A DNA stretch of 64,000 nucleotides from Pseudomonadaceae bacterium (lineage in GTDB: Bacteria > Pseudomonadota > Gammaproteobacteria > Pseudomonadales > Azotimanducaceae), in the NCBI GenBank assembly GCA_024743175.1, contig JANSXA010000001.1, positions 1 through 64,000 of the forward strand, given 5' to 3'. A program made the translations under genes and the position numbers. Shown here in pieces: positions 41,579-63,076 of this stretch. How positions within the stretch are numbered: the stretch's first letter is position 1; each line of letters starts with the position of its first letter. The notes under the pieces were generated by a model that saw only the letters and a program-made list of their open reading frames with translations, made no database searches and had not been told where the DNA came from.

Positions 41579-42265
41579 TTGAGAAATGGATTCTATGTCT
41601 TTATGCATTGGCACTATCTGGACAGCGAGCTCGAAGGCTTTTCAGCACTGACACCGGCGCTGGAAGGTACAGCCCTTGTCCTTCAGAAAATTAGAGATTG
41701 TCGAACCGAACTGGACCCTCAGGAACTTGTAGAAATACAGCCGATGGCGCAGCGCCGCCAGTTCGAATTTGCCAGTGGCAGGCACTGTGCGCATGTGGCT
41801 CAGAAAATCGTGGGGCTATCGCCGCAGCCTGTTCTGCGCAAACGCCGCGCACCACTCTGGCCGGACACCTGTATTGGCAGCATTACACACAGCGACACAA
41901 TAGCCGGTGCGGTAGTCTCCACCACGCTGCGAGGTGTCGGGCTGGATATCGAAGCCGCGGATCGAGTGGAAGAAAAGCTGTACCGCGTACTGTTTAATGA
42001 CGCTGAAAAGGCGCAGATCAGCGCAGCGGATTTTGATGCTGCGACAGTGCTGTTTTCAGCCAAAGAAGCCGGTTACAAGGCGATCTACCCGATTGGCGAG
42101 AAATTTATCTCTTTTCTGGAGGCGGAAATCATCCTGCAACCCGCAGACCAGACGTTCACCATTCGCTATCTCGGTGACCACGAGCCCAACAGGGCTTTAG
42201 AAAACGGCTATGGTTTCTGGCGGGAAAATGACGGGCAGATCATGACGGTGTTTGTTATCGAGTAA
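41579..42265 (+). CDS. 4'-phosphopantetheinyl transferase (EntD/Sfp superfamily)
   Basis: Transfers the phosphopantetheine arm of CoA to a serine of carrier proteins. The product is up to 228 residues; TTG 41579 or ATG 41603 could be the start. It shows SGRHCAHVAQKIVG, GSITHSDTIAGAVV, the magnesium-binding GVGLDIEAAD, and FSAKEAGYKAIYP, the two diagnostic motifs of the family in the EntD arrangement. No NRPS or PKS is adjacent. The only carrier protein in the window is at 50934, which makes it a candidate substrate. Its end overlaps the threonine aldolase gene by 11 bases (convergent). Confidence 0.88.
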   Translation: MRNGFYVFMHWHYLDSELEGFSALTPALEGTALVLQKIRDCRTELDPQELVEIQPMAQRRQFEFASGRHCAHVAQKIVGLSPQPVLRKRRAPLWPDTCIGSITHSDTIAGAVVSTTLRGVGLDIEAADRVEEKLYRVLFNDAEKAQISAADFDAATVLFSAKEAGYKAIYPIGEKFISFLEAEIILQPADQTFTIRYLGDHEPNRALENGYGFWRENDGQIMTVFVIE

Positions 42266-50933: not shown

Positions 50934-51173
50934 ATGGAACAAACAGTACGCGATGTGATCACCCGTCTGGGCGTGCTTCAGGACGTTGCAGTGCTCTGCG
51001 CGGATACAGATCTTTATGATGCAGGCATGTCGTCTCACGCCAGTGTGAAACTGATGTTGAGCCTGGAAGATGCTTTTGATATTGAATTCCCCGACGAAGC
51101 GCTGGAGCGCGAAACCTTTGCCAGTATCGAAGCCATCACCCGGACCATAGCGGGAATTCAGGCCAGTGAGTGA
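50934..51173 (+). CDS. acyl/aminoacyl carrier protein
   Basis: A 79-residue four-helix carrier protein. The phosphopantetheine site is S34 in LYDAGMSSHASVKLMLSLED, and FDIEFPDEALERETFASIEAI is the usual helix II-III region. It is acidic and complete. It opens an operon that holds a SerRS-like ligase, so I infer that it carries an amino acid rather than a fatty acid, as do the carriers paired with such ligases in Bradyrhizobium and Agrobacterium. The phosphopantetheinyl transferase at 41579 could activate it. It overlaps the next gene by eight bases. Confidence 0.9.
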   Translation: MEQTVRDVITRLGVLQDVAVLCADTDLYDAGMSSHASVKLMLSLEDAFDIEFPDEALERETFASIEAITRTIAGIQASE

Positions 51174-52380
51174 ACTGCAGGCTGAGCTATCAGATGGTAT
51201 TCGAACCAGCTGGCAGCACTGCAATTCCTATGAGTCGCTGGAAGCAGCTGTAACTGAAATTGCCACCAATATCGCAGCGCTGCATGCAAATGATGTAGAT
51301 CAGAAAAGCAGGTTTCCTCAGGAAACCATCGACGCGCTTCGGGCATCGGGCGCTCTGGGTGCAGGCGTTCCTTTGGGCCTGGACGGCCTTGGTTGCTCTG
51401 TGTCGCAGCAGGCACGCTTATGCAGAGTGTTGGGTGCCAGTTGTGCCGCAAGCGCCATGATATTGGCCATGCACTACATTGAGGTTGAATCCATCGTTCG
51501 TCACTGCGGCGACAGTGAATCTTTGCGCGGCTACCTGCGCAGGCTCAACCACGAGCAGCGGCTGATTGCTTCCGTTACTTCGGAAGTCGGCACTGATGGT
51601 GATATGACACAAAGCATTGCTGCGTTGGAAATGAGCGGTGATAGTTTTGCTTTCGAAAAACAGGCAACAACCATCTCGTATGGTGTATATGCACATGACC
51701 TGCTGGTGACGCTGAGGAGGAGTCCAGAAGCGGCGCCTACCGATCAGGTTGTTGTGCTTGTGCTTAACGGTGACTACGAGCTAACCGTAACTGGAGAGTG
51801 GGACACCCTTGGTATGCGCGGCACCTGTAGCCCCGCAGCTAAAGTTAAGGCGCGGGGTAAAGCCTGGCAGGTACTGCCAAAACCTTTTGCCGATATCTCT
51901 TCTCATACCATGGTGCCGGTTTCACACATCCTCTGGTCTGCGCTGTGGCTTGGCATTGCCAGTGATGCGGTGAACAAAGTACGCCGTCTACTGGTTGAGA
52001 AGTATCGTAAACAGCCAGATGAAATCCCTGCCAAAGCAAATCACCTGGCAGTGCTCGATGGCAAACTGCAGCAGATGAAAGCAGAGCACGAACATGTAAC
52101 CCAGGCTTATGAAGCCCTGTTGGCCAGTGGCAAAAAAATTGATGTGTTCAACGTTGGCTTTGCCCTGCAGATCAATAATTTGAAACTCAACGCGTCTAAT
52201 CACGTAAAAGAGATTGTGACAGAGGCCATACAGGTTGCCGGTATCGCGGCATATCGGAACAATTCTGAATACAGCTTAGGGCGACATCTGCGGGACGCTC
52301 TGTCGGCAAGCCTGATGATCAGCAATGAGCGCATTGTTGAATACAACGCCACACTGCAAATGCTGTATCGCGATCGCTAA
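51166..52380 (+). CDS. acyl-CoA dehydrogenase-like flavoprotein of the carrier-protein operon
   Basis: A 404-residue protein with the three-domain acyl-CoA dehydrogenase layout: N-terminal helices (FPQETIDALRASGALGAGVPLGL), a beta domain with ASVTSEVGTDGDMTQ and EWDTLGMRGTCS, and a C-terminal helical bundle (IWLGIASDAVNKVRRLL-like, VFNVGFALQINNLK). The usual C-terminal catalytic glutamate motif is not obvious; the tail reads HLRDALSASLMISNERIVEYNA. By analogy with prolyl-carrier dehydrogenases of pyrrole pathways it may oxidise an aminoacyl group on the carrier. It starts with GTG overlapping the carrier gene. Confidence 0.82.
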   Translation: MSELQAELSDGIRTSWQHCNSYESLEAAVTEIATNIAALHANDVDQKSRFPQETIDALRASGALGAGVPLGLDGLGCSVSQQARLCRVLGASCAASAMILAMHYIEVESIVRHCGDSESLRGYLRRLNHEQRLIASVTSEVGTDGDMTQSIAALEMSGDSFAFEKQATTISYGVYAHDLLVTLRRSPEAAPTDQVVVLVLNGDYELTVTGEWDTLGMRGTCSPAAKVKARGKAWQVLPKPFADISSHTMVPVSHILWSALWLGIASDAVNKVRRLLVEKYRKQPDEIPAKANHLAVLDGKLQQMKAEHEHVTQAYEALLASGKKIDVFNVGFALQINNLKLNASNHVKEIVTEAIQVAGIAAYRNNSEYSLGRHLRDALSASLMISNERIVEYNATLQMLYRDR

Positions 52381-52404
52381 CCAGTACAATGAGGTGGGTC
52401 GACA

Positions 52405-53310
52405 ATGATTGCGTCTCAGGCTGAGCTGACCCAACAGCTCCTCAATTCCGGGCTCTGGATATCGTCGAAAGTGAATGGCGTCTTTGGTTGGGGGCAGGGT
52501 TTTGAGACAGTCATCTCTGCGCTGGACAGTCGAATTACGCAATTTTCAGAAGCGGATGCTGCTACCTCGATCAACTTTCCGCCTATCCTTGATCGCAGTA
52601 TTCTTACCCGTACCGGCTACCTGCATTCGTTTCCAGAGTTGTGTGGTTCGGTACACAGTTTTTGTGGCTCGGAGCATGAACATCAGGCATTACTCACGGC
52701 AGTGGAAGGTGACGCTGACTGGAGCCCGCACGTTAAACAGACTGATGTCGCGTTGACGCCGGCGGTTTGTTATCCCCTTTATCCCACACTCTCAGGAACG
52801 CTACCTGAAGACGGTGTGCTTTACAGTCTTTCATCGTATGTGTTTCGGCATGAACCCTCGCTTGACCCTGCGCGGCTGCAGGCTTTCAGAATGCGTGAAA
52901 ATGTTCGTCTGGGTAATCAGGCACAGGTGGTGGCCTGGCGCCAGTTGTGGATGGACAGAGCGCTATCACTTCTGACTAGTCTTGAGCTTGATGTTGAGCT
53001 GGATATTGCAACCGATCCTTTTTTTGGGCGGGGCGGTAAAATGATGAAAGCCAACCAGAAGCAGGATGAGGGAAAATTTGAAATCCTCTGTCCTATTACG
53101 TCTGCTGAAGAGCCAACTGCTATCGCTTCGTTTAACTATCATCAGAGCAAATTTTCTTCTGTGTTTGAAATTCTGTTAGCAGATGGTGAGCTGGCGCATA
53201 GCGCTTGCATTGGCTTTGGCCTGGAGCGATGTGCTCTTGCGCTGTTCTCCACTCACGGTATGGCATTGGAAACCTGGCCTGCTGCGGTCCGTCAAGAGCT
53301 AGGGCTTTAG
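52405..53310 (+). CDS. amino acid:[carrier protein] ligase (SerRS-like class II synthetase homologue)
   Basis: A 301-residue protein resembling the catalytic core of atypical seryl-tRNA synthetase without a tRNA-binding domain. Class II motif 2 is YVFRHEP..RLQAFRMREN, and motif 3 is IGFGLERCALALF with R275. Zinc ligands are expected at C122 (VCYPLYP), E165 (RMREN) and C268 (SACIGFG); their spacing matches the published ligands C131, E176 and C279 of the Bradyrhizobium enzyme to within two residues. These enzymes load glycine or alanine onto the phosphopantetheine of a carrier protein, here very probably the protein at 50934. Confidence 0.9.
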   Translation: MIASQAELTQQLLNSGLWISSKVNGVFGWGQGFETVISALDSRITQFSEADAATSINFPPILDRSILTRTGYLHSFPELCGSVHSFCGSEHEHQALLTAVEGDADWSPHVKQTDVALTPAVCYPLYPTLSGTLPEDGVLYSLSSYVFRHEPSLDPARLQAFRMRENVRLGNQAQVVAWRQLWMDRALSLLTSLELDVELDIATDPFFGRGGKMMKANQKQDEGKFEILCPITSAEEPTAIASFNYHQSKFSSVFEILLADGELAHSACIGFGLERCALALFSTHGMALETWPAAVRQELGL

Positions 53311-53315
53311 GTCAG

Positions 53316-54290
53316 ATGATGGCGCATGTTATTGATGTGGATGTACAGAGGTTTGCGCCCAGTCCACTGCATGCGCCGGACAGAAACTGGTATGAAGGCA
53401 ACTGTTACACAGATCTCTGGATTGCTGTACTCCATTGCCTTGGGCTCGAACCTCGCGCCTGCCTTGGTCCGACGTTGTCGTGCGGCTACAGCGCGGATCA
53501 GTGGACATTTTTCAAACCCTCTCCAGGCGATCTGCAACGCCTTTATGGTGGTGTTATTGAAGAGATGACCGTGTGGCGCAGTCTGCTGGCCCATTGTGAG
53601 GCACATGTAGCAGCAGGGCAGTTACCCCTTGTGGAAGTGGACGCGTTTTATCTTCCAGACACCGCGCAAACGGATTATCAGAAGAATCACAGTAAAACGA
53701 CGATTGCCGTAAATGCCGTAGATGCACAGAGAAAAACCCTTGAGTACTTTCACAATGCGGGTTACTTCGAGCTGACAGGAGGTGATTTCGACGGCATCTT
53801 CCGATTATCGGAAAAAGCCAGCGAAGGACATCTGCCACCTTATTGTGAAACGGTGAAACTGTCACATCTGATAAACCGACCCGATGTCGAACTTAAAAAG
53901 CTGGCTCGGGAGATGGCTGCTGAGCACATCAGAAGCAGGCCGCCTGGCAATCCAATAGCTGCGTTTGAGCAATCTCTGGAACAGGCTTTGCCTCAGCTGA
54001 TTGAGCGGGATGAAGACTATTTTCATGCCTGGGTGTTTGCTTCGCTGCGACAGCTGGGTGCGGGATTTGAGTTGGCAGCAATACATCTGCGCTGGTTAGC
54101 GGATGATCAAGAAACCGCGATAGATGAAGCAGCGCAACATTTTGATGCCATTGCAGAGACAGCAAAGATGCTGGTGATGAAAACCGCACGTATCGCGATG
54201 AGTGGTAAGACAAAGTCCCTTGCTGCGCCGTTAGCTCAAATGCAGGCAGATCTTGAAGCCGCTTATACGCTGGTCGACAGGCAGTTATGA
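53316..54290 (+). CDS. DUF1839 family protein
   Basis: A 324-residue protein from ATG 53316 (the frame is open from 53205). The family pattern is clear: NWYEGNCYTDLWIAVLHCLG, TLSCGYSADQWTFFKPSP, LVEVDAFYLPDTAQTDYQ, HSKTTIAVNAVD and YFHNAGYFELTGGDF. A conserved Cys near residue 27 and His-Lys in YQKNHSKT could form a catalytic site of papain or transglutaminase type; this is my reading and unproven. DUF1839 genes are regularly found beside SerRS-like ligases, so it may transfer the aminoacyl group from the carrier to an acceptor. It overlaps the GH2 gene by four bases. Confidence 0.85.
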   Translation: MMAHVIDVDVQRFAPSPLHAPDRNWYEGNCYTDLWIAVLHCLGLEPRACLGPTLSCGYSADQWTFFKPSPGDLQRLYGGVIEEMTVWRSLLAHCEAHVAAGQLPLVEVDAFYLPDTAQTDYQKNHSKTTIAVNAVDAQRKTLEYFHNAGYFELTGGDFDGIFRLSEKASEGHLPPYCETVKLSHLINRPDVELKKLAREMAAEHIRSRPPGNPIAAFEQSLEQALPQLIERDEDYFHAWVFASLRQLGAGFELAAIHLRWLADDQETAIDEAAQHFDAIAETAKMLVMKTARIAMSGKTKSLAAPLAQMQADLEAAYTLVDRQL

Positions 54291-56806
54291 ATACTCTGAT
54301 GACCAATCGACCTGAAAGAGTGGAATTGTCAGGTTGGGAGTACGCAAAATCTACGTTGGACAAATGTCTGACGCCAGCGGACTCACAGAATCTGGAATGG
54401 CATCCCGCCACGGTGCCTGGAACGGTTGCTTCTGAACTGCTGCGCGGGCAGTCAATCAACTACGACTCGGTTTTACCTCTGGATGATGATGACTTCTGGT
54501 ACCGCGGCAAGGTTGTTCTGCCGACTGATATGCCGGGCTCGGTTCAACTCCACCTTGACGGGCTGGCCACGTTTGCGGAAGTGTGGCTTGACGATAAATT
54601 GGTGTTACGCACGGATAACATGTTCTGCGCTCACGTGCTCGATGTTTCGAAACACGTGCAAGAGGCGGGTGTAGAACACTTCCTGAGCATCCGTTTCTGC
54701 GGCCTCAGCCCTTTTCTGGCACAAAAGCATCCGAGAGCAAAGTGGCGTACCGCTTTTGTACAGCACCGGAATCTGCGCTTTGTCAGGACTTCGCTGGTAG
54801 GGCGCACCCCTGGGATATCCCCACAGATACCTGTAGTGGGACCCTGGCGGCCTGTCTACTTCGAACTGAGGCAAGCGCCCTCGTTATCCGTCACTCGTCT
54901 TAATGCGATGCTCGTTGAAAACATTGGCGTGATTGATGTTGAACTTTCGGTGCGTGGTACGGAAGGTTTAGAGGCGGGTGACAGACTTTCTTTGAGGTGT
55001 GGAGACTGCACTACAGAACTGACCCTTGAGTCCACCATGGACGAGGTGTTAATCGCCAGCGGCCGCCTGGAAATAGATAAACCCGAGCTCTGGTGGCCGC
55101 ATACCCATGGGGCACCCCATACCTATGACATAGCGATTGATGGAACCGTAGGCGGGCGGGATGTCTCCCATAACCACAAGGGTATCGGCTTTCGCACAAT
55201 CGAATTTAAGGATCCTTTTGCCATTTGTGTAAACGGCTTGGAAATTTTCTGCAGAGGCGCCTGTTGGCGACCGATTGATTTTTTGTCGATGAATCCTGAT
55301 CCCGATGAAATGCGAAGAGTTCTGGATCTTGCTGTAGATGCAGGAATGAACATGCTGCGCATTACCGGTGAAACAGCATACGAAACAGATACGTTTTACA
55401 GCCTGTGCGATGAGCTGGGCATAATGGTCTGGCAGGACTTCATGTTTGCGCGGTTGGACTACCCGGTTGAGGATGAAAATTTTCTGAGCAGCATCACAAT
55501 CGAAGCTGCGCAACTGCTGCGGCGATTGTCGACTCATCCCTGTCTGACGATGCTGTGTGGAAACACAGAGGTTGCTCAAACTGCTGCTTTGTTGGGTCTG
55601 GATAAGGAGAAATGGTCGAACAGATGGTTTGATCAGTCTTTGCCATCACTTTGCCAGGAGCTTCTCCCGGCGGTTCCATACTGGCGCTCATCGCCTGACG
55701 GTGGCGATATGCCGTTTTATACAGATGAAGGGGCTTCACATTACTTTGGTGTGGGTGCGTATCGGCAGGAACTGGCAGACGCTGTTGTGAACGCACCTGT
55801 GTTTGCGTCAGAGTGTCTGGCGTTTGGTATTCCGCGCCTGGGCTCGCTGGACAAGTCGATAGATGTTCAAGCGCAAGTCAGTACACCAGCTGATGCCAAC
55901 GCCAGCTGGTCTTTTGGGGATGTTACTGAATATTATGCCTTACAGCGGTTCGGCTCAGATCTTACTGAGATGAAGGAATCGAATATAGATCGTTACCACC
56001 TGCTTTGTGGCATAGCCGTGGGTGAGGTAATGTACGACGTTCAGTCGCAGTGGCGTAGAAAAGGCATTGCTTGTAACGGTGCACTACATATTGCTTTGAA
56101 CGACGCAGCAGATGGTAATGGCTGGGGGCTGCTCGACAGCAGAGGCAATCCAAAGGCGCCGTACTTTTTTCTCAAGCGCGCCTGGAAGCCGCTGGCCTTG
56201 ATGATAGTTGATCAGGGTGTCAATGGACTGAAGCTGGTAGTGCACAACGATCGTCCAGAGGAATTTGTTGGGACCCTGAAACTGTCATTCTGTCGTTTAG
56301 ACGGCGTTGTTGTACATGGCGGTGAACTTGATCTCACGCTTGCTGCCAGAAGTACTCTTGAGTTGAGTGCTGAACATGTCATCGGGCACTTCATGGACTC
56401 CAGTTATACCTATCGGTTTGGTGCTCGGGCTTTTGATTACATAATTGGCGAGTTAGCCGGCGCGCAGGGAGACTTGGTTGGGGAGACATTCGTCTTAAGC
56501 GATGAGAGCCTGATTCTACCAGCCCAGAAGATCGAATTAGAGGTCGATGTGATCGAGCAAAAAAATGGAAGCCTTCACCTCGAACTACTGGCGTCTCGGT
56601 TCGTTCAATCGCTTACACTTGAATCCGACGGTTTCAACGTGAGTGATAACTGTTTTCACCTAGCACCAAACAGACCCAAAACTATCCAGGCCATACCAAG
56701 CCGTTCTGCTGGCAAGTTTCAATTGACTGCTAGAGGCTCTAACATGAACAACTCGGTTGTAGCTCCCGCTTCTATCGCAACTAGACGAATTCAGGTTTCA
56801 GGCTAA
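54287..56806 (+). CDS. cytoplasmic glycoside hydrolase family 2 (beta-mannosidase-like) protein
   Basis: An 839-residue protein with the GH2 plan: sugar-binding jelly roll (VPGTVASELL, FWYRGKVVLP), immunoglobulin-like domain, TIM barrel, and C-terminal beta domains. The barrel holds the likely acid/base Glu in MLCGNTEVAQ and the nucleophile Glu in VFASECLAFG, where beta-mannosidases have GNNE and SE(F/Y)G. Both glutamates are present, so activity is possible. No signal peptide is seen, which is odd for a degradative enzyme and suggests that it edits or transglycosylates an intracellular intermediate. Coupled to the genes on both sides. Confidence 0.85.
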   Translation: MNTLMTNRPERVELSGWEYAKSTLDKCLTPADSQNLEWHPATVPGTVASELLRGQSINYDSVLPLDDDDFWYRGKVVLPTDMPGSVQLHLDGLATFAEVWLDDKLVLRTDNMFCAHVLDVSKHVQEAGVEHFLSIRFCGLSPFLAQKHPRAKWRTAFVQHRNLRFVRTSLVGRTPGISPQIPVVGPWRPVYFELRQAPSLSVTRLNAMLVENIGVIDVELSVRGTEGLEAGDRLSLRCGDCTTELTLESTMDEVLIASGRLEIDKPELWWPHTHGAPHTYDIAIDGTVGGRDVSHNHKGIGFRTIEFKDPFAICVNGLEIFCRGACWRPIDFLSMNPDPDEMRRVLDLAVDAGMNMLRITGETAYETDTFYSLCDELGIMVWQDFMFARLDYPVEDENFLSSITIEAAQLLRRLSTHPCLTMLCGNTEVAQTAALLGLDKEKWSNRWFDQSLPSLCQELLPAVPYWRSSPDGGDMPFYTDEGASHYFGVGAYRQELADAVVNAPVFASECLAFGIPRLGSLDKSIDVQAQVSTPADANASWSFGDVTEYYALQRFGSDLTEMKESNIDRYHLLCGIAVGEVMYDVQSQWRRKGIACNGALHIALNDAADGNGWGLLDSRGNPKAPYFFLKRAWKPLALMIVDQGVNGLKLVVHNDRPEEFVGTLKLSFCRLDGVVVHGGELDLTLAARSTLELSAEHVIGHFMDSSYTYRFGARAFDYIIGELAGAQGDLVGETFVLSDESLILPAQKIELEVDVIEQKNGSLHLELLASRFVQSLTLESDGFNVSDNCFHLAPNRPKTIQAIPSRSAGKFQLTARGSNMNNSVVAPASIATRRIQVSG

Positions 56807-57753
56807 TGACTGTTACCAGCGAAAATGGAAGTAACATCGAATATCGGGCCGTTACAATCGTTATCGTATCGTACCAATCATTTGCCACTATCTTGTCTAC
56901 TTTAAGCTCAGTTTTTCGCTGCTATTCAGAAGGCCTGGCTGATTGCGTTGTCGTCGACAACTCCAGTACCGATGGTACGCAAGCGCTAATTCGCAAGCAT
57001 GCGCCTTGGGCGCAGTTTATCGAGGCCAACGAAAACTTAGGATTTGCCCGTGGGTGCAATCTGGGAGCACAAAGGGTTGAGACGCCATATACGCTGTTTC
57101 TAAATCCTGATGCAGAAATAGAACCTGTCGCATTGCAGGCCATGCTTGAATTCATCGAAGCCTCAGAAAATATCGGTATTGTAGGACCTGCAACCATCTG
57201 TAAACCGAATGGCTGCACTGAAGTACTTCAAATGACAGGTCCAATCCCAACACCTCGTTCGGTCTTACCTCCAAAAGTTGCAAAAGCTTTCGGTGAAGAC
57301 TTAGTCAAGCCGATCTACCCAGGTGACTCACCGTTTCAAACAGGTTGGGTGTGCGGCGCTGTGTTCTTGATACGAACAGATCTGTTGCAGAGACTGCAAG
57401 GATTCGACCCACGCTTTTTCCTGTATTGGGAAGAAACAGATGTGTGCCTCCGGGCGGCTGAAGCAGGATTCGAGGTTTGGGCAATGGGATCCGCTGTTGC
57501 CTATCATGTTGCTGGGGCTAGTTCGAAAGAAGATATGAATAAGATAAATGGGTGTATAGCTCGGCACTATTACCAGAGCCGACGCCTCTTCATGCTTAAA
57601 CATTATGGTTGGGGGAGTACAACTTCTGCGGAAATTGCTGAGTGGTTTTGGCTTTTGGGGCTGTCTTTGTTGGACTTCATTAGAGGTCGGGGGCTTTCGA
57701 GATTCAGAATAAGGCTACAAGCACCGCTGTTCAGTCTGCCGGGTGATGGTTAA
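56806..57753 (+). CDS. family 2 glycosyltransferase, rhamnosyltransferase-like
   Basis: A 315-residue GT-A enzyme with VTIVIVSYQS, VVDNSSTDGTQALI, NENLGFARGCNLGAQ, the DxD-type FLNPDAEIEP, and FYWEETDVCLRAAEAGFE (FFLYWEETDVCLR). This is the WbbL/rhamnosyltransferase subgroup, whose usual donor is dTDP-L-rhamnose; the rmlBACD genes 16 kb away could provide it. A hydrophobic C-terminal stretch (WFWLLGLSLLDFI) may touch the membrane. It overlaps the GH2 stop by one base (TAATG). Confidence 0.88.
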   Translation: MTVTSENGSNIEYRAVTIVIVSYQSFATILSTLSSVFRCYSEGLADCVVVDNSSTDGTQALIRKHAPWAQFIEANENLGFARGCNLGAQRVETPYTLFLNPDAEIEPVALQAMLEFIEASENIGIVGPATICKPNGCTEVLQMTGPIPTPRSVLPPKVAKAFGEDLVKPIYPGDSPFQTGWVCGAVFLIRTDLLQRLQGFDPRFFLYWEETDVCLRAAEAGFEVWAMGSAVAYHVAGASSKEDMNKINGCIARHYYQSRRLFMLKHYGWGSTTSAEIAEWFWLLGLSLLDFIRGRGLSRFRIRLQAPLFSLPGDG

Positions 57754-57758
57754 AGATT

Positions 57759-59675
57759 ATGACTGTGCGAATCACACCTGGCCCTTATAAACCTAGCTTT
57801 GGGCCAAACCAGATGCCTCTGTTTTTCGGAGAAGATGAAGAAAACATGGTTTTCGGTTGGTATCACAGCCCTGATTCGACCGCCGAAAATTCTCGTAAAG
57901 ATGTTGGTGTAGTTCTGTGTAACCCATTCGGATTTGAAGAAGTAGCAGCTCATCGAGGTATTCGCTCCTTCGCGTTGGAGTGTAGCGCGCTCGGTTTTCC
58001 GTGCGTGCGATTCGACTACCTCGGATGTGGTAACTCTGCGCAGGATGAATTCAAACCAGACCAGGTCGCTGACTGGATTGAGTCCATTAGGTTCGCAATT
58101 GAAACGACTAAACATTTAGGTGGAGTTGAGAAAGTTGTTTTGGTTGGTTTTCGTTTTGGTTTTTCACTAGCAGCAATCGCCAGTGTTGATAGGCAAGATG
58201 TTTTAGCGATGGTTGCCGTGTCTCCAGTTATCAGAGGGCGAGACTATCTAAGGGAACTGCGTTTGCTGACCTCGTTTGATGAAAACTCTTCTTGCGATTT
58301 GGCAGGAATTGCTTTAGCGCCCAACGGATTCATTGTTAGCAAAGCTACTGCTGTGGCTATTCAGAAAATAGACTTGGGGATGGTTAAACTAGGTACGAAC
58401 AAATTACATTTGATTGAGGAGTTGCGGATATCATCGAAAGTAGAAAAGTGGTTGCAAACTGTGCAAAGCACAGGAACGAGCATTGATACATCCCTTGCTG
58501 ATGGTTATCTGCAACTAGCGTCAGACCCCCAAACCTCGACAACACCACGTGTTCTATTCGACAGGATTCTTCAGTCTATAGAGAACTGGGGTGAGCTGGC
58601 TAACGATTATCATGTCGAATCAAGACAAGCTGCTGCTGGTCTGTTACCGAACCTGGTTTTGAGGCAGTCAAAACCCTGCAATTTTGCAGATAGAACTCAT
58701 TTTCCCTCGCTTAATGATGGAGCAGATCAATCAGATGATAGGTCCGAAACCGCTCTTTTAAAAGAGAGTATTGTGACTATTCCAGCGGGTCCAAATGGTT
58801 TGTTCGGATTGCTAACTGAACAGGATAACAGCACATCTCAGCGCGCGGTAGTTATTCTTAACGCCGGGGCGGTTCGTAATATCGGCCCTAACAGAATGTT
58901 TGTACTTCTCGCCAAAGCTTGGGCTGAAAAGGGTTATCGCGTTTTGCGATTGGATTTTTCTGGTATCGGTGATAGCCAAGATCGAGAAATTGATCAGAGG
59001 GGGGCATCATACGCAGAGAGTGTAGCTGAGGAATTGATTGGGGCAGTAGAATTTCTTCGGCAACAAGGTTGTTCAGAGATAACATTAGTCGGCCTATGCT
59101 CTGGTGCATACCACGCTTTCAGGGGTCTTGTTTCGGGTATGGATGTCCAGGCAGCTATTCTAATCAATCCCCTAGCCTTTGATCCGAAAGATCTTGATGA
59201 CTTGGAAGATAAAACATTTGCGACATACGAAGTCCTTAATCTCTTCGCGAACATCAAGCGTCAAATATTCACAAGGAAGTTTTGGTCGAAACTTCGGAAA
59301 GGTCAGCTCGACACCATTACACTTAGAAAGCTAGTTATCCGAAGAATTAAATTTTCCATTGATCTTGTAGTTAACGGTACTCTGAGAATGTTAAATCTAG
59401 GGCGCAGGAGCGACTTTGTAGAGAATGTGCGTAGTGTCTTGAGTTTGGGTAACTCGTTGCAGTTCTATTTTTCTGAATCCGATCCAGGACTAGAGCTCTT
59501 GGTTAAAAGGTCTGGAAAGACGCTGGCGGAGTTTCATGAAAGCAAGAATTTCGGTATTTGTTTGATACCTGACGCGGATCACACATTTACCAAATTCAAC
59601 GCTCGCACGCGACTCATAGAAGAGTTGATCAGATTATTGCAATTAGAACATCCGACAGTATCTAAAAACGAATGA
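57759..59675 (+). CDS. double alpha/beta hydrolase, related to exosortase-system hydrolases
   Basis: A 638-residue protein with two hydrolase domains in tandem. The first (about 15-230) has VVLCNPFGFEEVAAHRG, RFDYLGCGNS and VGFRFGFSLAA, where the nucleophile serine of GxSxG is replaced by phenylalanine (GFRFG). The second (about 345-625) has VVILNAGAVRNIGPNRM, RLDFSGIGDSQD and the intact-looking VGLCSGAYHAF (GLCSG), with a late DADHTFTK histidine. The half-domain patterns resemble the hydrolases attached to exosortase loci. So one half looks dead and one active. Five bases separate it from the glycosyltransferase gene. Codon use is more AT-rich than upstream. Confidence 0.8.
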   Translation: MTVRITPGPYKPSFGPNQMPLFFGEDEENMVFGWYHSPDSTAENSRKDVGVVLCNPFGFEEVAAHRGIRSFALECSALGFPCVRFDYLGCGNSAQDEFKPDQVADWIESIRFAIETTKHLGGVEKVVLVGFRFGFSLAAIASVDRQDVLAMVAVSPVIRGRDYLRELRLLTSFDENSSCDLAGIALAPNGFIVSKATAVAIQKIDLGMVKLGTNKLHLIEELRISSKVEKWLQTVQSTGTSIDTSLADGYLQLASDPQTSTTPRVLFDRILQSIENWGELANDYHVESRQAAAGLLPNLVLRQSKPCNFADRTHFPSLNDGADQSDDRSETALLKESIVTIPAGPNGLFGLLTEQDNSTSQRAVVILNAGAVRNIGPNRMFVLLAKAWAEKGYRVLRLDFSGIGDSQDREIDQRGASYAESVAEELIGAVEFLRQQGCSEITLVGLCSGAYHAFRGLVSGMDVQAAILINPLAFDPKDLDDLEDKTFATYEVLNLFANIKRQIFTRKFWSKLRKGQLDTITLRKLVIRRIKFSIDLVVNGTLRMLNLGRRSDFVENVRSVLSLGNSLQFYFSESDPGLELLVKRSGKTLAEFHESKNFGICLIPDADHTFTKFNARTRLIEELIRLLQLEHPTVSKNE

Positions 59676-59730
59676 TACAGACAATCGAGGAGATTCTTTC
59701 GCGGAGCCTCTATTAAATTAGGCGTTGTTA

Positions 59731-60837
59731 ATGTTGCGTATACGAAACTCATGTCTTTGGTTTGCTTCGACCTTAATAGTGCTAGTCACTGTTCTAGGAC
59801 TTAGTGAACTCCTACTCAGAAGCTCAGTATCGCTATCGTCCCTTGTAGATCCGAACGATCTCTATCCGAAGGTTTGGTATTTAGAAAATTTTGAGTCGGT
59901 GCAAAGTAGGGGGCGGCATCCTGTGCATGCTTCACACGAAGTACTCGGTTGGACCCATCGAAAAAACCTACGTGAGCCTGGCTTTTCTACCAACTCGTAT
60001 GGTTTGAGAGGTACTCGTGAGTATAGCTTCGAGCGGCAACCTGGAACCTCAAGAGTTGTTGTTCTCGGTGACTCATTTAGCGCTGGTTTCGGAGTAGAAG
60101 ACGAAGAAACGTTTTCTGCGCAGCTAGAGAGACTTATTCCAAATTCTGAGTTTCTTAATTTAGCTGTTAGCGGTTACGGAGTAGATCAGGCAGTCCTGAG
60201 GTGGGAAACGCTTGGCCGGCGTTTTCAACCTGACGTCGTTATTCTAGGTATTTTCATTCCGGATTTTCATCGCAATACAGGAACATGGTGGTTTGATGCC
60301 CCCAAGCCTCGCTTCTATATAGTGAATAATACACTGACAATTTCGAGCGAGGAGCTACCTCCGATGGAGGATGTAGAGGCAAATGTTCAACTAATACGAA
60401 ACGAACTCGATTCCTTGCTAAGACTTCCACGAGTTTGGATAGCCGGGCAATTTGTTTTCGATAGAGTCTTGCGGAAGCTACGGGGTTCGCGGGAAGCAGA
60501 TGCAACTTTTGTCGAGAAGCAAAACATCCTCGAATTGCTAATTTCGAGGTTAGCTGCTGATTGTGCAAAACGCGGAATTGATCTACTAATTCTAACAATA
60601 CCCACGGAATACTCCCCTTACCCGGATGAGGATCGGATCCTATCTTTCATAGTGAAGGCTGCTGAAAGCAATAACACGGCTTTACTTGCATTGGACCGTT
60701 TTTTGGGAACAAGTGCTGCTGAGCAGCGAAAAGAACCTGTTTTTGATGCTCAAACCGGTCACTGGTCTGCTTCGGGGCATAGACGCGTTGCAATCCAGGT
60801 GGCAGATTTTCTTAAGGCTGAGGGGCTTAGCGATTAA
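59731..60837 (+). CDS. membrane-anchored SGNH hydrolase-like protein
   Basis: A 368-residue protein with an N-terminal anchor (WFASTLIVLVTVLGLSELLL) and an extracytoplasmic SGNH/GDSL domain. Block I is VVVLGDSFSAGFGVEDEETF with the catalytic serine, block II-III is LNLAVSGYGVDQAVLRWE, and the C-terminal GHWSASGHRRVAIQVADFL holds the histidine. Such proteins O-acetylate or deacetylate exported polysaccharides. I prefer ATG 59731 (AGG eight bases upstream) over TTG 59725. It follows the double hydrolase by 55 bp and belongs to the AT-rich block. Confidence 0.82.
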   Translation: MLRIRNSCLWFASTLIVLVTVLGLSELLLRSSVSLSSLVDPNDLYPKVWYLENFESVQSRGRHPVHASHEVLGWTHRKNLREPGFSTNSYGLRGTREYSFERQPGTSRVVVLGDSFSAGFGVEDEETFSAQLERLIPNSEFLNLAVSGYGVDQAVLRWETLGRRFQPDVVILGIFIPDFHRNTGTWWFDAPKPRFYIVNNTLTISSEELPPMEDVEANVQLIRNELDSLLRLPRVWIAGQFVFDRVLRKLRGSREADATFVEKQNILELLISRLAADCAKRGIDLLILTIPTEYSPYPDEDRILSFIVKAAESNNTALLALDRFLGTSAAEQRKEPVFDAQTGHWSASGHRRVAIQVADFLKAEGLSD

Positions 60838-61450: not shown

Positions 61451-63076
61451 TTGCAGCGAATGAGAAAAGAGCTAATTGAGACTATGAAAACAACTTCCCT
61501 TGCAGACGCGTGCGGAAAAAAATGGGACGCGGTTGTAGTGGGTGGGGGAATGGGAGGGGCAGCGATTTCGTTCTCACTTACCCGAGGTGGTTTTGATGTT
61601 TTGTTGATAGAGAGGGGGCTGGCTGAGCCTATTCGTGGTCAGCGATCATCCGACTATAATGCAGACGATGAAGATTGGAGGTTCCGATACGGGCAATGGC
61701 CTAAAAAGACTAAACTAACGATTGATGGTCGATCTAGTGAAGCCTGGCCGTCAATGGGGTGTGGATTGGGCGGTTCAACAAATCTTTATGCCGCAGCACT
61801 GTCGCGATTTGAAGCGAGCGACTTTCTGAGTAAAGAAAGTTCAGGTAGCTACACTGAATCTTGGCCTTTCGACTATCAAGATCTTGAACCTTATTATCTA
61901 GAGGCTGAAGAACTTTTTGAAATTAATGGGACACAAGACCCGTTGGACAATCTCTCGCGATATGAACTTCGAGATCCGCCGCCAATGGGGCCTCGGGATC
62001 AGCACTATTTCGATTGTCTGAAATCCACAGGGCTAAATCCCTATCGTATTCACAATGCTATCCGTTATGTGGATTCCTGCCAGGAGTGTGTTGGCAACAT
62101 TTGTGAGCGTGCTTGCAAGGGCGATGCTCGAAATCGTTTGATTGAACCCGCGTTAAGAACCGGATGTCTGACCATATTGGAGACAACTGAAGCCCTTTCC
62201 GTAGATGCAAGTAGGAGCCAGGCGAGTGGAGTTAGGGTTCGCAAAGATGGCGTTGAGTCGATTGTTCATGGCCATATTGTCGTACTTGCAGCAGGTTCTC
62301 TCGTAACACCGATATTGCTAAGGAATTCTATCAGTCCTGATTGGAGGCAGGGTATAGGCAATGACTTTGATCAAGTTGGTCGAAAGCTTATGTTCCACGC
62401 TACTGATTTTATCGCTGTTTGGCCTCGCAAGAAAATACAACATTCTGGCCCATCTCGAACAATAGCATTCAGAGATTTCTATTTATGTGGTGAAGACAAG
62501 TTAGGTGAAGTTCAATCCATGGGTATGAGCGCTGGATATGGAGAAATACTCACCTTCTTGCATCAGCAATTCGATCAAAGCATTTTCAGTAAAATCCCTT
62601 TTATACGCAGCTTGTTGAGAGTGCCAGCATTTGTGGCTTCAAAGATGTTTAGCGATGCAGCTGTATTCGCAACAATAGTTGAAGATTTGCCTTATGCTGA
62701 AAATCGAGTTGTTTCTGACCCTGATAGCCCTTCTGGATTTCGTGTTGAGTACGCAATAGCGCCAGAACTTCGAAGAAGGGTGATTCGAATGAGAGATTTA
62801 GTTAAAGGAAAGCTCAGAGATTTAAGGGTTCTAGTTGTAAACTCCGATGTCACTCTCAATCTTGGTCATGCGTGCGGTACCTGTGCGGTTGGCTCTGACC
62901 CGGAAACAAGCGTTCTAGATTCGAACTGTTTAGTTCACGGAATGAAGAATCTTTACGTCGTTGATGCATCGTTTATGAAGACCAGCGGTGGAACTAACCC
63001 AAGTCTCACGATCGCAGCAAATGCGCTTCGAGTTGGTCGTCATGCTTCCTCCTATTTGAGTCAAATGTATCAATGA
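61451..63076 (+). CDS. GMC-family FAD oxidoreductase
   Basis: A 541-residue flavoprotein. The FAD-binding start is DAVVVGGGMGGAAISFSLTR near residue 26 with LLIERG, then MGCGLGGSTNLYAAALSRF, and the C-terminal GMC domain has NLGHACGTCAVG with the catalytic histidine and YVVDASFMKTSGGTNPSLT. A cysteine-rich stretch DSCQECVGNICERACKG near residue 215 is typical of the cholesterol oxidase/GMC branch that may hold a metal or FeS site. Starts TTG 61451 (AAAGG upstream), ATG 61460 and ATG 61484 are possible. In this context it may oxidise a sugar or alcohol of the glycan. Confidence 0.85.
   Translation: MQRMRKELIETMKTTSLADACGKKWDAVVVGGGMGGAAISFSLTRGGFDVLLIERGLAEPIRGQRSSDYNADDEDWRFRYGQWPKKTKLTIDGRSSEAWPSMGCGLGGSTNLYAAALSRFEASDFLSKESSGSYTESWPFDYQDLEPYYLEAEELFEINGTQDPLDNLSRYELRDPPPMGPRDQHYFDCLKSTGLNPYRIHNAIRYVDSCQECVGNICERACKGDARNRLIEPALRTGCLTILETTEALSVDASRSQASGVRVRKDGVESIVHGHIVVLAAGSLVTPILLRNSISPDWRQGIGNDFDQVGRKLMFHATDFIAVWPRKKIQHSGPSRTIAFRDFYLCGEDKLGEVQSMGMSAGYGEILTFLHQQFDQSIFSKIPFIRSLLRVPAFVASKMFSDAAVFATIVEDLPYAENRVVSDPDSPSGFRVEYAIAPELRRRVIRMRDLVKGKLRDLRVLVVNSDVTLNLGHACGTCAVGSDPETSVLDSNCLVHGMKNLYVVDASFMKTSGGTNPSLTIAANALRVGRHASSYLSQMYQ

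Follow-up and report, generated by a model that had tools for sequence, protein, structure and literature searches.

We have analyzed a run of genes on the forward strand of a 64,000-nucleotide stretch of DNA (positions 1 to 64,000 of contig JANSXA010000001.1, GenBank assembly GCA_024743175.1) from a Pseudomonadaceae bacterium that GTDB places in the Azotimanducaceae. This whole stretch is called the window here. The run encodes a carrier protein, a flavoprotein with the acyl-CoA dehydrogenase (ACAD) fold, an amino acid:[carrier protein] ligase resembling seryl-tRNA synthetase (SerRS), a DUF1839 protein, a glycoside hydrolase of family GH2, a glycosyltransferase of family GT2 and a fused alpha/beta hydrolase. 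The first five make up a cassette that is real, is well conserved and was predicted in print in 2010; what is new here is structural support.

The gene run in the window

The carrier protein gene (50934-51173, 79 amino acids) matches PF00550 and the NF005480 profile (95 bits against a cut-off of 72). It overlaps by 8 bases the flavoprotein gene (51166-52380), which matches the Pfam family Acyl-CoA_dh. The ligase gene (52405-53310) follows after 24 bases; its product has no Pfam match and belongs to NF005479, with 400 bits over the curated cut-off of 357. The DUF1839 gene (53316-54290; PF08893, 347 bits, E = 1e-103) lies 5 bases further on, counted from the ATG at 53316, which was read by eye as its probable start; the mechanically defined open reading frame (ORF) opens at 53205. 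The beta-mannosidase-like GH2 gene (54287-56806) overlaps the end of DUF1839 by 4 bases, and its GH2 domains have beta-mannosidases as their best PDB matches. The GT2 gene (56806-57753; PF00535, Glycos_transf_2, E = 3e-18) shares a single base with GH2. The gene for the fused double alpha/beta hydrolase (57759-59675, 638 residues) begins 5 bases past the end of GT2, also on the plus strand. An earlier note on this DNA had described six genes, from the carrier protein to GT2, packed with overlaps or very short gaps. All six ORFs are present in that arrangement on the plus strand, and profile searches uphold the identities given to them. A scan for promoters (4 predicted, against 10.6 in shuffled sequence) and terminators (20 against 11.4) was uninformative.

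Conservation of the cassette and two forms of the ligase

A scan of a genome collection gave at least 576 confirmed relatives of DUF1839, and the best 80, ranked by likeness to the query and rich in closely related Rhizobiaceae, served as the locus sample. The presence of the five genes in these loci was scored by profile search, and gene order and strand were checked separately. Carrier protein, flavoprotein, ligase, DUF1839 and GH2 are all present in 69 of the 80 loci, and 54 of these complete loci have the order of the window on one strand. The remaining 15 differ in strand: the carrier protein gene is inverted in 4, from kin of Ktedonobacter, and the carrier protein and GH2 genes lie on the opposite strand in 11, from Burkholderiales. 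As labelled in the database records, the phyla are Pseudomonadota, Actinomycetota, Chloroflexota, Acidobacteriota, Myxococcota, Gemmatimonadota and Nitrospirota (a metagenome-assembled genome of the Troglogloeales). The same five genes stand in this order in all six plasmid regions inspected among 59 plasmid records recovered by tblastn with DUF1839. Since the five genes recur together across phyla, their grouping is more than chance, and they form a real cassette. Mirror-tree correlations range from 0.40 to 0.73 (four genes, 30 loci), values to which, with no outside control, common descent contributes too.

Eleven of the 80 loci are incomplete. Among these, L052 and L078 are truncated by the ends of their contigs, L065 lacks GH2 and carries a Bac_transf gene behind DUF1839, L122 is without the flavoprotein, and seven are from Rhodococcus. 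Six of the Rhodococcus loci show only DUF1839 and GH2 within the available stretch, and in L087 the ligase and flavoprotein genes lie 5.5-7.5 kb past GH2 on the other strand. GH2 itself is found in 78 of the 80 loci. Within the window's own family DUF1839 occurs in 2 of 61 genomes, the window's included; acquisition by transfer in this lineage is therefore suggested.

The GT2 gene, which the earlier note had counted as part of the gene set, is not core. GT2 profile matches occur in 17 of the 80 loci, and one of the 11 other sampled cassette genomes has a GT2 gene, located 1 kb past GH2 on the other strand; not being conserved, GT2 was rejected as a defining member. The frequent sixth member is instead the fused alpha/beta hydrolase, left out when the set was ended at GT2. 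The hydrolase was found in 50 of the 80 loci and within 3.5 kb of GH2 in 47 of 78; ten of the 30 loci without a visible hydrolase are stretches shorter than 20 kb. On the plasmids it is the next gene on the same strand in two of the six regions, lies on the opposite strand in one and was not seen in three.

A separate sample of 299 genomes of the window's phylum was screened for DUF1839 and for the ligase profile NF005479. DUF1839 was found in 12 genomes, while the ligase profile matched in 37 and exceeded its cut-off in 21, among which are all 12 genomes with DUF1839. In every one of these 12, carrier protein, flavoprotein, ligase, DUF1839 and GH2 follow each other in order (a second DUF1839 copy in genome G255, at a contig end, stands outside this comparison). 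The linkage of ligase, DUF1839 and GH2 genes is strong and crosses phyla. The earlier note had named a lack of such linkage across genomes as grounds for refuting its reading, and on this point the reading withstood the check. In the other nine genomes over the cut-off the ligase gene is beside a flavoprotein gene, with a carrier protein seen in seven, and DUF1839 and GH2 were not found at these nine loci, which are called short-core here. Four loci from the 16 genomes below the cut-off gave no flavoprotein, DUF1839 or GH2 match; two of the four have a weak carrier-protein match 2-5 kb off.

The two forms also separate in a maximum likelihood tree of 43 ligases: one branch (91/91; recovered in 92% of bootstrap trees) sets apart the 30 ligases of full cassettes, and another (97/98) the nine of the short-core form. 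Bll0957 of Bradyrhizobium (PDB 3mey and 4h2w) is of the same ligase family and can be aligned with the window's ligase over 285 residues. It belongs to the short form, because the ligase of L136, a near-copy of the crystallised protein (705 bits), sits within the short-core clade, a sister clade whose nine loci differ from the window cassette in gene content. In three short-core loci (L131:6700-9010, L133:9905-12212 and L138:4912-7190), two of which are near-copies, homoserine O-succinyltransferase and pyridoxal phosphate genes of Cys/Met metabolism lie near the flavoprotein and ligase; these neighbours may belong to a different pathway that draws on the same aminoacyl carrier.

Conserved residues and predicted folds

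The alignments comprise 81 rows for the carrier protein, 99 for the flavoprotein, 92 for DUF1839, 91 for GH2 and 46 for the hydrolase. The ligase matches 4h2w (E = 4e-71) and 3mey (E = 2e-70) in the PDB, both of them Bll0957, and aligns only with the catalytic half of SerRS, the tRNA-binding domain being lost. Its residues C122, E165 and C268, 98-100% conserved, align with Cys131, Glu176 and Cys279 of Bll0957, which we take to be the Cys-Glu-Cys zinc ligands. Residue S34 of the carrier protein, present in 100% of the rows, is by analogy the probable phosphopantetheine serine. A 4'-phosphopantetheinyl transferase gene (PF17837, PF01648) at 41579-42265 of the window, 9 kb upstream, could activate the carrier protein. 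An AcpS-type gene lies within 800 bases of the carrier protein gene in 23 of the 80 loci. Two Myxococcota loci (L074:5786-7162, L101:5198-7012) and many Rhizobiaceae (for example L090:6323-7399) have a lysine 2,3-aminomutase/EpmB-like gene, recognised by eye, immediately upstream of the carrier protein or AcpS-like gene, with profile matches in 22 of the 80 loci. In the Rhizobiaceae it is often accompanied by EpmA- and EF-P-like genes, and this neighbour may reflect chance synteny or a beta-lysine link.

At position 385 of the flavoprotein 86 of the 99 rows have Ile and the other 13 have Val, within a motif L-M-[IV]-[SN]-N-[DE]-R that has a few exceptions at some places. By eye we take this position to correspond to the catalytic Glu376 of medium-chain acyl-CoA dehydrogenase (MCAD). 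Because the dehydrogenase glutamate is absent, alpha-beta dehydrogenation of the aminoacyl group was demoted to a minor option. His254, Trp257 and Trp261 are invariant. The predicted model (pLDDT 90.9) matches the folds of KijD3, TdsC, DszC and DnmZ, and also those of true dehydrogenases; the rmsd to KijD3 (3m9v), DszC and MsuC is 2.9-3.3, and the top matches by E-value are Tfu_1647 and an MCAD mutant. The flavoprotein is predicted to act on the carrier-bound amino acid as a monooxygenase or oxidase, oxygenation being the better guess.

The DUF1839 model has a mean pLDDT of 94.5. Cys34 is conserved in 91, His129 in 89, and His150 and Glu182 in all 92 of the rows (residues are numbered from the codon at 53304; counted from the ATG at 53316 each number is lower by four), and in the model Cys34 opens a long helix, as in papain folds. 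A Foldseek search of this model against the PDB gave 17 matches with E <= 0.001, three to AziU2/U3, eight to CtaG and six to CcbD chains. According to a 2025 review (PMC12945683), CcbD uses a Cys-His-Glu triad: carrier-bound proline is moved to the cysteine and from there to the amine of a thiooctose. For CtaG a role as peptidyl transferase between carriers has been proposed (PMC6772006). DUF1839 was placed among papain-like enzymes in 2023, with a guess at glycan processing (PMC10318531). On the model and these analogies, DUF1839 is predicted to be a papain-fold aminoacyl-carrier:amine acyltransferase.

In GH2 the catalytic glutamates E428 and E509 are kept in 90 and 91 of the 91 rows. The residue before the acid/base is Ser in 85 rows, Thr in 3, Asn in 2 and Gln in 1; the window has Thr, as GNTE in place of NE. 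Two aligned beta-mannosidases have Asn there, unlike the 88 cassette rows with Ser or Thr. The exo-beta-glucosaminidase CsxA has Ser before an acid/base that is itself Asp (GSD), as does a relative from another genome. A Pfam search of the window's GH2 gave no match to the Ig_GlcNase domain PF18368. The residue pattern hints at a 2-amino sugar as the target of the cassette GH2. The enzyme is apparently cytoplasmic: no hydrophobic N-terminal segment was found in the window's protein, and none of the 91 rows, trimmed where the N-terminus is longer, shows a hydrophobic stretch within 40 residues of the column at which the window's protein starts.

The C-terminal half of the fused hydrolase carries a conserved Cys-His-Asp set (Cys447 and His608 in 46 of 46 rows, Asp575 in 41), while the N-terminal half is without a nucleophile, having Arg, as in the window, or Gly at that place. 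The hydrolase scores below cut-off against TIGR03100 (95.0 bits, cut-off 168.45) and TIGR03101 (82.4 bits, cut-off 202.75). Its halves resemble exosortase-A-associated hydrolases 2 and 1, which are separate genes in exosortase-A clusters. A link to exosortase A was rejected, since the genome has no TIGR03098 or TIGR03100 match over cut-off.

A predicted route from amino acid to amino sugar

The gene set has a published precedent. A note in proof to PMC2922099 (2010) names as one neighbourhood an acyl carrier protein, a redox enzyme, a SerRS-like ligase, a conserved ORF, a glycosidase and liposaccharide genes. It predicts that the conserved ORF joins the amino acid to a sugar amine through an amide bond, and that the amino acid is also modified, with monooxygenation as the probable change. 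From its place in that neighbourhood we infer that the conserved ORF, Atu2574, is DUF1839. The Atu2574 system then has the same gene set and the same predicted reaction as the cassette, and the window differs from it by the added GT2 and fused hydrolase. That note in proof is without a structure, the hydrolase, the phosphopantetheinyl transferase and the division into full and short forms, all noted here. The earlier note had taken the operon for the window's best candidate for an undescribed pathway; that description is not supported, given the 2010 prediction and of the glycan role guessed for DUF1839 in 2023 (PMC10318531). No experimental test of the 2010 prediction was found in the accessible literature on DUF1839, bll0957, Atu2571-2574 and carrier aminoacylation, a body of work in which subscription journals are mostly uncovered.

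The odds are modestly in favour of the cassette being a carrier-protein pathway that modifies an amino acid and couples it to an amino sugar. Every reaction, the acceptor and the product are here predicted from what is observed, namely the genes, their linkage, the conserved residues and the model and fold matches. The SerRS-like ligase would adenylate a small amino acid and load it on the carrier protein; Gly or Ala is expected by kinship, as the studied ligases of this kind use one or the other (table in PMC9437257). The flavoprotein would then oxidise the tethered amino acid, with oxygenation likelier than alpha-beta dehydrogenation. The cysteine of DUF1839 would take over the aminoacyl group and pass it to an amine, most likely that of an amino sugar, by analogy with CcbD in the synthesis of celesticetin. 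Finally, GH2 and the Cys-type hydrolase may trim or edit the conjugate, which would end in an exopolysaccharide or a small glycoside.

Known systems share parts of this scheme. CcbD and LmbD have in common with DUF1839 the overall fold, the conserved cysteine and, by prediction, a carrier-bound amino acid as donor, with no detectable sequence similarity; their pathway loads the carrier by an adenylation domain, whereas the cassette would do so by the SerRS-like ligase. To our knowledge there is no GH2 in the lincosamide pathway of CcbD and LmbD. The butirosin system, with BtrH and its partners, also uses a carrier-bound amino acid and a flavin step. Membership of DUF1839 in the BtrH family was rejected: PF08893 was the only Pfam match at E <= 0.01, with none to BtrH_N (PF14399). 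MshC of mycothiol synthesis is a class I, CysRS-like enzyme and needs no carrier protein. It too resembles aminoacyl-tRNA synthetases, and it couples an amino acid with an amino sugar (PMC9437257).

The surroundings of the cassette were compared by Pfam neighbour tallies, each of which lists 25 families only. These are a fairer measure than our GT, Wzx, AcpS and KamA profiles, whose zero counts in the nine short-core and four divergent loci are biased because the profiles were built from the same loci in which they were counted. Among 102 ORFs neighbouring full cassettes, chosen out of 184 listed, GT4 (8) and GT2 (6) are the commonest families, and Bac_transf occurs twice. Neither GT4 nor GT2 appears in the 25-family tally of the short-core control. 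That control covers 60 ORFs near eight of the nine loci (L133 was omitted as a near-copy of L131), and since its list ends at families with two members, up to two GT2 and up to two GT4 could be hidden. On its own contig the window cassette is surrounded by genes recognised by eye as Wzx-like, Wzz/chain-length-like and dTDP-rhamnose-type, and the same stretch holds carbamoyltransferase-like and several glycosyltransferase-like genes. The idea that the aminoacyl group ends on a sugar or glycolipid, which the earlier note had drawn from the neighbouring genes, draws support from DUF1839, with its CcbD-like fold, and from the glycosyltransferase-rich surroundings in part of the loci, but it is not new.

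Several observations weigh against this pathway. The similarity of DUF1839 to CcbD, CtaG and AziU2/U3 reaches a query-normalised TM-score of only 0.53-0.61, with rmsd values of 5.5-7.0, and two DUF1839 sequence profiles (A1 and A2) found none of these proteins among PDB sequences at E <= 10. Because no sequence profile detects kinship, we say that DUF1839 works like CcbD and not that it is a member of that family. The site proposed for DUF1839 in PMC10318531 is Cys-(Thr/Ser)-His, unlike the Cys-His-Glu of CcbD, and the Foldseek ranking of the flavoprotein cannot tell monooxygenases from dehydrogenases. Locus L122 lacks the flavoprotein. A locus from another member of the window's family (L170:1-4771, genome G356) has carrier protein, flavoprotein, DUF1839 and GH2 genes with no ligase between them, the carrier protein gene being at the contig end; the sole ligase-profile match in that genome is below cut-off and on a different contig. 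A glycosidase is an odd partner for a biosynthetic pathway, and none of the glycosyltransferases is constant: a match to at least one of the GT2, GT4 and Wzx profiles was found in only 38 of the 80 loci, in 6 of the 12 sampled genomes and in none of the six plasmid regions, one of which carries an annotated GT9. The short-core control also has families of glycan type, with two members each of GINT1_N, GH43 and Epimerase among the 60 ORFs.

The alternative that survives best, though we think it improbable, has the aminoacyl group going to a non-sugar amine of a lipid, polyamine or peptide, with GH2 acting on an imported glycoside in detoxification or catabolism. CcbD takes other amines too (PMC12945683), the hosts are often soil- or plant-associated, and the inconstant glycosyltransferase would fit. 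Against this stand the glycosyltransferases, Bac_transf genes and flippases near cassettes in unrelated phyla, and the Ser that most cassette GH2 proteins have in common with the amino-sugar enzyme CsxA. A little less probable again is that DUF1839 is a thioesterase freeing the oxidised amino acid, for example a hydroxylamino acid, as a small metabolite, while GH2 and the hydrolase act elsewhere, for instance to activate a stored glycoside. Papain folds often hydrolyse, and the plasmid cassettes have no GT2 or GT4 profile match nearby; yet bond formation to amines is described or proposed for two of the three solved folds that come closest, and a single-purpose thioesterase would not need the near-constant GH2. 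We give a small chance to attachment of the amino acid as an ester, on a hydroxyl in the repeat unit of an exopolysaccharide or lipopolysaccharide, in which case the Cys-type hydrolase would be the real transferase and DUF1839 would have another role. The strict conservation of Cys447 and His608, and the naming of the hydrolase's weak relatives TIGR03100 and TIGR03101 as exosortase-A-associated hydrolases, speak for such a reaction, but the hydrolase is missing from view in far more loci than GH2. Peptide synthesis of the NRPS type was dropped, there being no condensation domain among the family matches of the cassette.

Transfer to an amino sugar is thus preferred, and a narrower form of it may be put forward tentatively, as a proposal that we consider rather unlikely in its full detail. 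In it, a nitrososynthase-like flavoenzyme, a CcbD-like transferase and a 2-amino-sugar GH2 would work with the SerRS relative and the carrier protein to make, in seven phyla, an amino sugar whose attached amino acid is oxygenated, as in an N-hydroxyglycyl amide at C2. If true, the product would be a sugar conjugate of a new class, whether a small metabolite with a protective role or an exopolysaccharide decorated in this way. In a 2022 review, twelve years after these ligases were reported, the biological purpose of their carrier aminoacylation was still given as unknown (PMC9437257). The likeness of DUF1839 to CcbD names a protein, a donor and a type of acceptor for settling that role, for which the full-cassette members are the relevant ones, the crystallised Bll0957 being in the clade without a visible DUF1839. 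Downstream of the run, on the same strand of the window, a GDSL-like gene (59725-60837) is followed by a gene for a GMC oxidoreductase (61451-63076).

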